A stretch of DNA of 64,000 nt from Epidermidibacterium keratini. Its GTDB lineage: Bacteria > Actinomycetota > Actinomycetes > Mycobacteriales > Antricoccaceae. A program made the position numbers and the translations under genes. The notes beneath the pieces were generated by a model that saw nothing but the letters and a program-made list of their open reading frames with translations, made no database searches and had not been told where the DNA came from. Positions 59,307 to 61,914 of this stretch are shown in pieces. The stretch covers positions 1,674,001-1,738,000 of the forward strand of contig NZ_CP047156.1 of assembly GCF_009834025.1 (NCBI RefSeq). The letters are read 5' to 3'. The first letter of the stretch is position 1. Each line of letters opens with the position of its first letter.

Positions 59307-59401
59307 GTACGCCGAACTGATTGCGCGCAGTGCCATCAAGGGCGTTAGATGTTCCTGACCGGTAGCGACACGCCGGGCTGGAGAAAAATTCTGCGGGCAT
59401 C

Positions 59402-59429
59402 GGGAACCGCGCGGCGAGAAGCCACCGTC
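59402..59429 (+). promoter_or_regulatory. Possible ECF-sigma promoter upstream of the repeat protein gene
   Basis: GGGAAC-like box (GGGAACC at 59402-59408) and CGTC (59426-59429), 17-19 bp apart, resembling SigE/SigH-type promoters. About 70 bp of leader would precede the AGGAG and ATG at 59502. Weak evidence, from motif resemblance only. Confidence 0.25.
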
Positions 59430-59501
59430 AAGAGTTCGCACAACATGAAACGGCCTACAGCCGCTAACACACGAACTCACAACTTCCTATGAGGAGCAAT
59501 C

Positions 59502-60179
59502 ATGGATTACTACGACGTCGATGGAAACGGTGTTGCCGACTCGGTTGGTTATGACACCAACGGAGATGGCGTGAACGACGTGTACGAGGTCGACACCAAC
59601 GGCGACCAGTACGCCGACACCACCGTCACCGACTACAACCAGGACGGCTACGCCGACGGTTACTCCTCGGCCGACCCGTCGGCCCCCGGCGACAGCACCT
59701 ACTACGCAGGTGGCGAGACCACCGCTGGCGGCGGCACCACCTACGACAGCGACGGCGACGGCGTTGCCGACCAGGTCGGCTACGACACCAACGGCGACGG
59801 CATCGATGACGTCTACAACATCGACACCGACGGCGACCAGTACACCGACACCACCGTCACCGACTACAACCAGGACGGCTACGCCGACGACGGCTCGGCC
59901 ACTGTCTACTCCAACCAGTACGAGACCGCGACCGACAGCACCTACGGCTCGTCCGGCGCCACGACCGACTCGGGCTCGGCATCGGCCTCGTCGGCCAGCT
60001 CGGCCTCGTCCTCGGACACCACCTACTACGACTCCGACTACGACGGTGTGGCTGACTCGGTCGGCTACGACACCAACGGCGACGGCATCGACGATGTCTA
60101 CGTGATCGACACCGACGGCGACCAGTACGCGGACACCACGGTCACCGACTACAACCAGGACGGCTACGCCGACTCCTAA
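59502..60179 (+). CDS. Asp-rich protein of three 49-residue EF-hand-like repeats, no signal peptide
   Basis: 225 residues, ATG behind GAGGAG. Three nearly identical 49-residue units at residues 4-52, 81-129 and 176-224. Each carries four Asp loops: D-x-D-G-x-G-V-A-D, D-T-N-G-D-G-(V/I)-(N/D)-D, D-T-(N/D)-G-D-Q-Y-(A/T)-D and D-Y-N-Q-D-G-Y-A-D, i.e. 12 possible Ca2+ loops of the dockerin/thrombospondin-3 kind. Linkers are Gly/Thr/Ser-rich (53-80, 130-175). There is no signal peptide, transmembrane segment, sorting motif or Cys, and the protein is strongly acidic. It ends at a very strong terminator. I recognise no family; calcium binding is inferred from the loops. Confidence 0.85.
   Translation: MDYYDVDGNGVADSVGYDTNGDGVNDVYEVDTNGDQYADTTVTDYNQDGYADGYSSADPSAPGDSTYYAGGETTAGGGTTYDSDGDGVADQVGYDTNGDGIDDVYNIDTDGDQYTDTTVTDYNQDGYADDGSATVYSNQYETATDSTYGSSGATTDSGSASASSASSASSSDTTYYDSDYDGVADSVGYDTNGDGIDDVYVIDTDGDQYADTTVTDYNQDGYADS
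59511..60173. repeat. Three 147-bp coding repeats of the Asp-rich gene
   Basis: Units at 59511-59657, 59742-59888 and 60027-60173 are closely similar at the DNA level (for instance GACACCACCGTCACCGACTA occurs in units 1 and 2, with one change in unit 3). Spacers of 84 and 138 bp differ in sequence and length. Confidence 0.85.
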
Positions 60180-60190
60180 ACAAGCACCGC

Positions 60191-60239
60191 ACAACGGCGG
60201 GCCGAGACGACCAGATCGTCTCGGCCCGCTGTGCGTTGT
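60191..60239 (+). terminator. Very stable terminator after the Asp-rich repeat gene
   Basis: GCGGGCCGAGACGA (60197-60210) and TCGTCTCGGCCCGC (60216-60229) pair perfectly over 14 bp with a 5-nt loop; ACAACG (60191-60196) and CGTTGT (60234-60239) extend it beyond a small internal loop. Because it is symmetric it can also end the convergent gene at 60270. Confidence 0.9.
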
Positions 60240-60269
60240 GCGGCGTACTGGCGGGGTACGCCGAGCCGG

Positions 60270-61064
60270 TTAGGCGGCCGGCGGGAACTGGCCGGGGCGC
60301 CGCCCGCTGCCGGGCTTGCCGGCAAACGCCTGCGCGACCTCGAGGAACTCCTCGGCAAGCGGTCCGTCCGCTTCCAACGCGGTATCGGCGCGGTGGCGAC
60401 GCTGCGTCATCAGCAGCGCCATATCGAGCGCGCTGCCGCGGATCACGTCGGTCTCGGACTCGCCGAAGACCCAGGTGCCTCCGGACGGCGCGATCACCTC
60501 GATGCGGACGTCGGCATCGGGCACCGGCAGGTCGCGGTTGGCGTAGGCAAAGCCGCGGGCGCGGTAGCCGATGTGGAGCACGTGCCGCAGCCGGTCGGTC
60601 GGTTCGCGGCGTACGCCGAACGTATCGGCGATGTCCTGCCCGTGCGCCCAGTGCTCCATGATGCGGGCGGTGCAGGCGGACGCGACGCTCATCGGCGGTC
60701 CGTACCACTGGGTCCGAAGGCCCGCCGGAGCGCCGGTCATCGCGTCGTACATCGGCTGGCGCCCCGAGCGCCACAGCGCGAAGAGGTCGTCCGGGCGCAT
60801 CTGCACCAGCGGCCCGGCAACCGTGGTGGTGTAGTCCGGGTCGGCCTTGGCGACCTTCAGCGACTCCGCGAACGCGTCCGGGTCGACGATCGACTCGGTG
60901 ACCGCGCCGTCGAAGAACGCCAGGTGCGCCACCTGGTGCGCGACGGTCCAGCCCTCGGCGGGCGTATCTGCGCCCCAGTCCTCGTCCGAGCGCCCGGACA
61001 GCAGCTCGTCGACCGACTCCTGCTCGGCTTTCAGATCGGATACAAGCGCTGCGATATCGGCCAT
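60270..61064 (-). CDS. TIGR03084-family metal-binding protein (maleylpyruvate isomerase-like, DinB fold)
   Basis: 264 residues from the ATG at 61064; longer frames cross the divergent crotonase. The N-terminal four-helix DinB/MDMPI domain has the candidate metal ligands in WTVAHQVAHLAFFDG (His43 or so and His47) and in RIMEHWAHGQDIADTFG (about 134-150), with a C-terminal sheet domain (ADVRIEVIAPSGGTWVFG). Proteins of this fold in actinobacteria include mycothiol-dependent isomerases. In my recollection TIGR03084 genes recur near AtuA and acyl-CoA genes. Divergent from the crotonase across a 53-bp palindrome. Confidence 0.85.
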   Translation of the reverse strand: MADIAALVSDLKAEQESVDELLSGRSDEDWGADTPAEGWTVAHQVAHLAFFDGAVTESIVDPDAFAESLKVAKADPDYTTTVAGPLVQMRPDDLFALWRSGRQPMYDAMTGAPAGLRTQWYGPPMSVASACTARIMEHWAHGQDIADTFGVRREPTDRLRHVLHIGYRARGFAYANRDLPVPDADVRIEVIAPSGGTWVFGESETDVIRGSALDMALLMTQRRHRADTALEADGPLAEEFLEVAQAFAGKPGSGRRPGQFPPAA

Positions 61065-61081
61065 ACGGCGACTCCCGGGGC

Positions 61082-61134
61082 GGTGGTGGACATTGCTTCG
61101 ATACTCGCGAAGTATCGAGGCGAAGTCCACCACC
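61082..61134. promoter_or_regulatory. 53-bp nested palindrome in the TIGR03084/crotonase divergent promoter
   Basis: Outer arms GGTGGTGGAC (61082-61091) and GTCCACCACC (61125-61134) pair over 10 bp; inner arms CTTCG/CGAAG and CGATACT (61099-61105)/AGTATCG (61111-61117) also pair around CGCGA. It starts 18 bp from one start codon and ends 22 bp from the other, so it is well placed as an operator or a divergent-terminator-like structure. Confidence 0.7.
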
Positions 61135-61155
61135 ATCTGACTGCTAGGAGAACTC

Positions 61156-61914
61156 ATGCCCGAGCTCGTGCACCTCGAGGTCATCAACGGCGTCGCGACC
61201 ATCACCCTCGACTCGCAGGAAAACCGCAACGCGCTGTCCGAGCAGCTGATGAACGAGCTCATCGGACATCTGCAGACGTGCGAAAAGGATCCCGCCGTAC
61301 GCGTCGTCGTCATCACCCATGCCGGGCCGGTCTTCTGCTCCGGCGCAGACCTCAAGGCGGCATCGAGCGGCGGGATGAACACCGGCGCGCTGATGGTCAG
61401 CATGCTGCGCGCGATCGCGGCACTGCCCAAGCCGGTCATCGTCAAGGCCGCCGGCGCCGTGCGCGCGGGCGGGCTCGGCATCGTCGGCGCCGCCGACATC
61501 GCGCTGACGACCGAGGATCAGACGTTTGCCTTCACCGAGGCGCGGCTCGGGCTGGCGGCCGCGATCATCTCGCTGACCACCCTGCCGCGGATGGACGAGC
61601 GTACGGCGACCCGGTGGTATCTGACCGGCGAGACGTTTGACGGCAAGGCCGCCGCCGCGGCTGGCCTGGTCAGCGCCGCCGTACCCGCCAATCGGCTGGA
61701 TCTGGCGATGGCCGAGACGGTCGCCGGGCTGCTTCAGGCCTCGCCGCAGGGGCTGGCCGAGACCAAGGCGCTGCTGTCGCGCGGGCTGGTGCGTCACATC
61801 GACGAGTACGGCGAGCAGATGGTCGAGCTGTCGCAGCGGCTGTTTCGCAGCGAGGAGGCGCTCGAGGGCATGCGCGCGTTCAAGGAGAAGCGCAAGCCCT
61901 CCTGGACTGCGTAG
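61156..61914 (+). CDS. Enoyl-CoA hydratase-family protein, methylglutaconyl/isohexenylglutaconyl-hydratase-like
   Basis: 252 residues, ATG with AGGAG upstream. Crotonase fold with oxyanion loops VFCSGADLK (about 56-64) and VRAGGLGIVGAADIAL (about 103-118). The first catalytic Glu of mitochondrial ECH (in GGGCELA) is replaced here (GGLGIVG), while the second is kept (FTEARLG, about 130-136). This GGxG arrangement with one Glu is what I recall for LiuC/AtuE-type glutaconyl-CoA hydratases. Given the AtuA gene and the carboxylase nearby, hydration of a carboxylated branched enoyl-CoA is a reasonable inference. Confidence 0.85.
   Translation: MPELVHLEVINGVATITLDSQENRNALSEQLMNELIGHLQTCEKDPAVRVVVITHAGPVFCSGADLKAASSGGMNTGALMVSMLRAIAALPKPVIVKAAGAVRAGGLGIVGAADIALTTEDQTFAFTEARLGLAAAIISLTTLPRMDERTATRWYLTGETFDGKAAAAAGLVSAAVPANRLDLAMAETVAGLLQASPQGLAETKALLSRGLVRHIDEYGEQMVELSQRLFRSEEALEGMRAFKEKRKPSWTA

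Follow-up and report, generated by a model that had tools for sequence, protein, structure and literature searches.

A leaderless calcium-type loop repeat protein of Epidermidibacterium keratini and a promoter-like element shared with mycobacterial homologues

Thrombospondin type-3 (TSP3) repeats and other Dx[DN]xDG proteins contain tandem loops of the D-x-[DN]-x-[DN]-G type, 13 residues apart. TSP3 proteins are secreted or held at the surface and carry a signal peptide. Calcium-loop motifs of this kind are mostly extracellular, and the EF-hand and the calcium blade are the only contexts in which they are numerous inside cells, as far as the available part of one source indicates (PMC3123361). 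An affinity for calcium of about 100 uM is given for loop-like and charge-dense disordered segments in the accessible portion of a second source (PMC8391695). Among the papers listed in literature searches, none on the repeat family described below was found beyond one dealing with Rv3906c, a protein of 169 aa linked to pcnA, for which calcium sites were predicted in silico, as stated in the section of that paper at hand (PMC6114228).

In this article, a gene is described from the window, a stretch of 64,000 nucleotides of Epidermidibacterium keratini (contig NZ_CP047156.1, positions 1,674,001 to 1,738,000, forward strand). Its product shares tandem loops at 13-residue steps with TSP3 proteins but differs from them in having no export signal and no cysteine, hence no disulphides. 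The reading that we favour, tentatively and at somewhat short of even confidence, is that of a cytoplasmic calcium-type loop ladder whose synthesis an ECF sigma factor would switch on when needed.

Anatomy of the gene and its product

The features of the locus, with the evidence for each in brackets, are as follows:

59383-59389, + strand: A-tract 5' of the promoter-like element, with A-rich sequence at the same place in five orthologues (upstream alignment; function putative)
59403-59429, + strand: ECF-type promoter-like element GGAACC-N17-CGTC, 99 nt 5' of the ATG (upstream alignment, family counts)
59432-59478, + strand: inverted repeat GAGTTCG...CGAACTC in the putative leader, weak (folding score, z -2.3)
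59490-59492, + strand: in-frame TGA shutting the frame 5' of the ORF (sequence; open frame of 228 aa)
59492-59496, + strand: ribosome binding site AGGAG, immediately 5' of the ATG (sequence)
59502-60179, + strand: leaderless Asp-rich calcium-loop repeat protein, 225 aa (ORF, translation, orthologue alignment)
59511-59657, + strand: repeat unit 1, residues 4-52, four loops (loop pattern, unit comparison)
59742-59888, + strand: repeat unit 2, residues 81-129, four loops (loop pattern, unit comparison)
60027-60173, + strand: repeat unit 3, residues 176-224, four loops (loop pattern, unit comparison)
60184-60246, + strand: very stable hairpin without a U-run, probable terminator common with the convergent gene (-49.9 kcal/mol, z -9.0)

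The three 49-residue units with four Asp-rich loops each, proposed in the initial annotation, are real: the pattern D-x-[DN]-x-[DN]-[GQ]-x-x-D recurs at 13-residue spacing, four times per unit and 12 times in total, and it is followed strictly by 11 of the 12 loops, the exception being DSDYDGVAD with Tyr at position 4. The loops contain the D-x-[DN]-x-D-G motif and the trailing acidic ligand of Dx[DN]xDG calcium-loop proteins, some of them as N or Q variants. That the units make up nearly the whole protein was an overstatement, as they account for 147 of the 225 residues (65%), and the remainder consists of linkers rich in Ser, Thr and Gly (residues 53-80 and 130-175).

The composition of the protein is extreme, with 49 Asp and 3 Glu, a single Met, and no Lys, Arg, His, Leu, Phe, Trp or Cys, giving a calculated pI of 4.05 and a net charge of about -52. 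A total of 52 acidic residues against zero basic ones would suit a polyanion that works by charge, mimicking nucleic acid or decoying basic proteins, with the calcium-like loops being incidental, and the linkers, which are Ser-rich and variable in the orthologue comparison, are compatible with such a role. We nevertheless consider it distinctly unlikely, as the 13-residue spacing is strict and the Asp, Asn and Gly positions of the loops are conserved across families, which favours metal loops over mere charge.

The absence of an export signal, which had been presented as unexpected for repeats of this kind, is confirmed. The TGA four codons 5' of the ATG closes the frame and so rules out a hidden upstream start that would add a signal peptide; no hydrophobic stretch was found in the protein, the highest 15-residue Kyte-Doolittle mean being -0.08. 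The claimed ribosome site was likewise found, as was the stand-alone arrangement with a leader: the gene forms a hairpin-flanked single-gene unit with its own promoter-like element. With regard to the exceptionally strong terminator, the stability of the hairpin is as described, but it lacks a U-run and hence is not a canonical intrinsic terminator. Strong hairpins lie 3' of all five orthologues (z -5.0 to -10.4), their sequences being unrelated. An Rfam scan of the leader returned no family at or near the gathering score.

Searches of Pfam and NCBIfam with the 225-aa protein gave no family above cut-off. TSP3 was not among its Pfam matches up to E 1, nor was the RTX repeat model among them, and the EF-hand model had no match to the protein, with sub-threshold matches only in the relatives at loci L029 and L040. 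DUF6802 (PF20615), on which a literature search found no paper, did not match the window protein at E 1, and its likeness to relatives is weak and sub-threshold (17.6, 14.4 and 20.6 bits; cut-off 27). The CHU_C type IX domain (PF13585) was rejected at 25.3 bits against a cut-off of 27, a score that is probably driven by composition, and the single match in a search of solved structures, at E 0.94, is meaningless. AlphaFold2 supported no fold, with a pLDDT of 38.6 for the five orthologues and 52.1 for one unit alone.

The repeat family and the age of its units

An orthologue is present in all five genomes of the GTDB family, which span three genera, with the other four at 68-80% identity; all five are leaderless, and the position of the start is conserved. 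Five paralogues were found in three of these genomes: two in E. keratini itself, as a tandem pair at 838-840 kb, two in G003, as a pair behind the orthologue, and one in G004. The E. keratini pair (L006:5909-7581, about 837.9-839.6 kb of the genome) consists of leaderless genes, each preceded by its own GGAACY-N17-CGTC. Matches were also obtained in 45 of 298 genomes of the order and 30 of 394 genomes of the class at the limits used, counts that include many weak, short matches and do not amount to a census. Searches of phages and of viral contigs gave no relative of the protein, and two pattern scans of the contigs of named genomes gave 15 and 127 pattern matches with no relative among them. 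The MSEY-type homologues at L086, L084, L085, L089 and L093 (family f15) have a common C-terminal tail, FQSQTGQV[FI].

The loci examined yielded 55 ORFs in which three or more loops keep the 13-residue register; removal of a truncated duplicate (L010, 3163-3636) left 54 distinct repeat ORFs. A signal peptide is absent from 53 of the 54, as judged by a hydropathy scan and reading of the sequence rather than by a trained predictor; the one Sec-like signal is in L040, and a hydrophobic stretch at L073 precedes the probable true start. To judge from these sequences, leaderlessness is thus the rule in the repeat family and no quirk of the window gene. In genus g34 the repeat protein comes with a Sec-like signal peptide (L147:8800-9540, L148:9399-10121 and L149:9516-10514), a natural contrast to the leaderless ones; the L040 relatives in L147 and L148 stand outside the count of 54.

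The signal-bearing relatives in L040 and L147-L149 count against a cytoplasmic location and lend some weight to its main rival, in which the protein would leave the cell independently of Sec and Tat, by type VII (ESX) secretion or in membrane vesicles, and would fold outside at millimolar calcium, in the manner of RTX proteins, which fold after type I export. Such export is a real possibility, if on the unlikely side. EccB-bearing ESX loci occur in all five family genomes, in keeping with it. Type VII substrates are marked by a WxG hairpin or a C-terminal YxxxD/E, and against an ESX route neither the WxG helical hairpin nor the C-terminal motif is seen in the 225-aa sequence, read by eye. The genome of E. 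keratini contains two EccB genes (2408560-2409972 and 2829990-2831216), probably marking two ESX-type secretion loci.

Recent expansion or gene conversion had been suggested from the DNA similarity between the units, which is 84-88% in the window gene. The comparison across genomes argues otherwise. Units at the same position in different genomes share 81.2% amino acid identity (30 pairs), against 75.9% for different units within one gene (15 pairs) and 73.0% for different units of different genomes (60 pairs), and the three-unit layout is identical in all five orthologues. The numbers of identical codons between units (31/40, 29/41 and 38/45) compare with 30.6, 30.9 and 34.8 expected from codon usage, so the similarity at the DNA level is that predicted by protein identity and codon bias. 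As the units group by position across genomes and the codon counts lie at expectation, the triplication is, on this sequence comparison, older than the split of the three genera. There is one contrary hint: in the unit tree, unit 3 of the window gene clusters near unit 1, which, without any codon-level excess, may reflect some older homogenisation.

The shared element and its candidate sigma factor

In the aligned upstream regions of the five orthologues, GGAACC occurs about 99-135 nt before the start and is followed at near-fixed spacing by C[GA]TC. The exact form GGAACY-N17-CGTC has 17 sites in the whole genome (4,018,808 bases, one contig), against 16 for the reversed control, and three of the 17 precede the three repeat genes of the genome, correctly oriented and at a distance of 92-107 nt from the called start. 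The pattern CTTGAGGAACC-N-CRTCAA gave 0 matches in the same genome. The looser form GGAAC-N16-19-C[GA]TC lies 5' of 10 of 10 family repeat genes versus 3 of 149 other ORFs in the family loci (0 of 149 for a narrower GGAAC pattern), and 5' of 20 of 21 mycobacterial homologues versus 2 of 195 other ORFs in the mycobacterial loci, the genes compared being related and thus not independent events. It was found in none of the 15 MSEY-like homologues and in two of the remaining eight, and its lack in 15 of 15 and 6 of 8, respectively, tells against the favoured reading.

The pcnA-adjacent mycobacterial homologue, which we take to be Rv3906c by its length, its pcnA neighbour and the gene order (near sigM), resembles the window protein in being a leaderless, Asp-rich ladder of 13-residue loops (about 165 aa) behind the same promoter-like element. 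The mycobacterial proteins differ in lacking the three 49-residue units and in carrying Lys, Arg and His, and their element is located about 35 nt before the start, a distance that suggests a leaderless mRNA. The position of their GGAAC is kept, though the overlapping end of pcnA reads through it in differing frames. In favour of export, Rv3906c is predicted to be secreted by LocTree3, as reported in the available part of the source (PMC6114228).

GGAAC and CGTC at promoter spacing, which we take to be the SigM consensus, occur here in a genome that has a sigM orthologue, a combination expected of a SigM-type ECF regulon. The orthologue (L043:1468-2040) scores 280.6 bits with NCBIfam NF007225 against a curated cut-off of 190 and shares 52.6% identity with a mycobacterial SigM; on one side it is followed by a gene in the anti-sigma position and then trxB, and on the other by a gene matching a mycobacterial MurJ-containing protein. 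The consensus given for SigH and SigE of Corynebacterium, GGAAC with GTT in the part of the source consulted (PMC10012870), would suit the element less well than that of SigM.

Control by SigM would suit the ESX route of export as well, because SigM has a known link to ESX-4: in M. tuberculosis it controls esx-4 and esxE/esxF (PMC8092274, PMC8593097), and overproduction of sigM raises esxT/esxU and esxE/esxF transcripts (PMC8593097), according to the portions of these papers available. Against that route, both eccB loci of the genome are free of consensus sites, all 17 being elsewhere.

The sigma factor may differ between lineages. The orthologue in genus g3 has the variant GGAACC-N16-CATC, and the same CATC variant (GGAAC-N-CATC) precedes the repeat genes on Rhodococcus and Prescottella plasmids; ECF sigma genes lie near these plasmid genes and, in at least one genome, near the g3 orthologue. 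At L029 (genus g3), the ORF directly 5' of the orthologue carries sigma-70 regions 2 and 4, and the sequence 5' of the orthologues in L027 and L028 resembles that of L029, the ORF picked in L027 being without a Pfam match. In genus g3 the repeat gene also has CopC-CopD and PCuAC genes in its vicinity, and in at least one genome an ECF sigma gene adjoins it, a setting that would fit the homeostasis of a metal other than calcium, such as copper or manganese. That role is very improbable, given that the repeat protein has neither Cys nor His and only a single Met, and that the metal-gene neighbourhood was seen in g3 only.

Neighbouring genes and the proposed role

Convergent with the repeat gene in the window is a gene for a TIGR03084-type metal-binding protein (60270-61499, - strand), whose called start is probably too early, the TIGR03084 match beginning at residue 151. 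In the Mycobacterium-type loci L033-L035, too, the repeat gene converges with a homologue of this gene (41-43% identity), and at L034 both the TIGR03084-type gene and MurJ are near the repeat gene; such a neighbour was not seen beside the repeat gene in the other four family genomes.

Plasmids of Rhodococcus and Prescottella, for which 17 records matched and three were read, encode a leaderless protein with repeats of the same type, which aligns with roughly half of the query at 38-40% identity. Their repeat gene belongs to a cluster of several genes with a peptidase, unlike the single gene of the window: it is followed by genes for a leaderless C39-like peptidase, a small acidic protein and an ECF sigma factor, and in both larger plasmid stretches read by dynamin, GTPase and Hsp70 genes. 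G265 (L137) has the same gene set, its Hsp70, dynamin and GTPase genes included; in G042 (L138) the repeats are fused to a C39-like peptidase domain in one protein, beside a dynamin gene, and in G371 (L097) genes for dynamin, a GTPase and Hsp70 adjoin a 269-aa repeat gene. When the L097 protein served as query for a further search of plasmids, nothing matched. C39-like peptidase genes near Hsp70 and/or dynamin genes were noted at L137, L138, L139 and L140.

A general linkage of this kind was rejected, as only one of the 20 loci L082-L101 (L097) has it, and, of the C39-like loci, those of the top four matches have dynamin and/or Hsp70 genes nearby and none of the six mycobacterial ones read does. 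The linkage to dynamin and Hsp70 genuinely exists in some lineages, though most lack it. Its relevance for the window gene is a matter of analogy. Two observations count against the favoured reading: a row of Hsp70-like, GTPase and dynamin-like genes in E. keratini (L106:8329-15285, about 1.62-1.63 Mb), resembling the genes near repeat genes on Rhodococcus plasmids, contains no repeat gene, and a C39-type peptidase (PF13529) was not found in this genome, nor did the Rhodococcus C39-like protein as query match any of the five family genomes.

We infer cation binding, folding on binding, promoter activity, the identity of the sigma factor, location and physiological role along the following lines. 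Each 13-residue step would comprise one D-x-[DN]-x-[DN]-[GQ]-x-x-D loop and a short strand-like segment, with four steps per unit. Without a divalent cation the chain, at a charge of about -52 and with no basic residue, would be extended, and calcium or a similar ion filling the loops would drive folding unit by unit. The gene and its two paralogues would be turned on together from promoters of the ECF type, with the SigM orthologue as the most likely sigma factor. The most likely job would be the uptake, buffering or sensing of a rise in cytoplasmic divalent cations during envelope or late-growth stress; in doing so the protein may cooperate, in a calcium-dependent manner, with membrane or chaperone machinery, by analogy with the lineages in which dynamin, Hsp70 and C39-like peptidase genes adjoin.

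A cytoplasmic, ECF-controlled ladder is supported by the closed frame, the leaderless orthologues and wider family, the shared element, the SigM orthologue and the neighbourhoods with C39-like peptidase and sigma genes. The mostly extracellular occurrence of such motifs counts against it, as does an affinity of about 100 uM, since simple loops would then be mostly empty at nanomolar cytosolic calcium. Overall, the sequences hint at a calcium-handling job within the cell or at export by an unusual route. A wider proposal, speculative and rather unlikely, is that the leaderless calcium-loop family, including Rv3906c, is a core target of a SigM-type sigma factor activated by contact or in late growth across the Mycobacteriales, and an intracellular calcium-dependent effector.

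To our knowledge, few calcium-handling proteins are known inside bacteria. If the wider proposal is true, the family would be a stress-induced bacterial calcium responder with neither EF-hands nor export, which in some lineages would act together with dynamin/Hsp70 membrane machinery. Among the new findings the most useful is the shared promoter-like element, through which the genes of E. keratini appear connected with those of mycobacteria and with control of the SigM type. Calcium loops in a widespread leaderless family with this ECF-type element would be tied to the sigma factor by which mycobacteria control ESX-4. The uncharacterised Rv3906c would gain a candidate regulator and a candidate role, both of which are testable.
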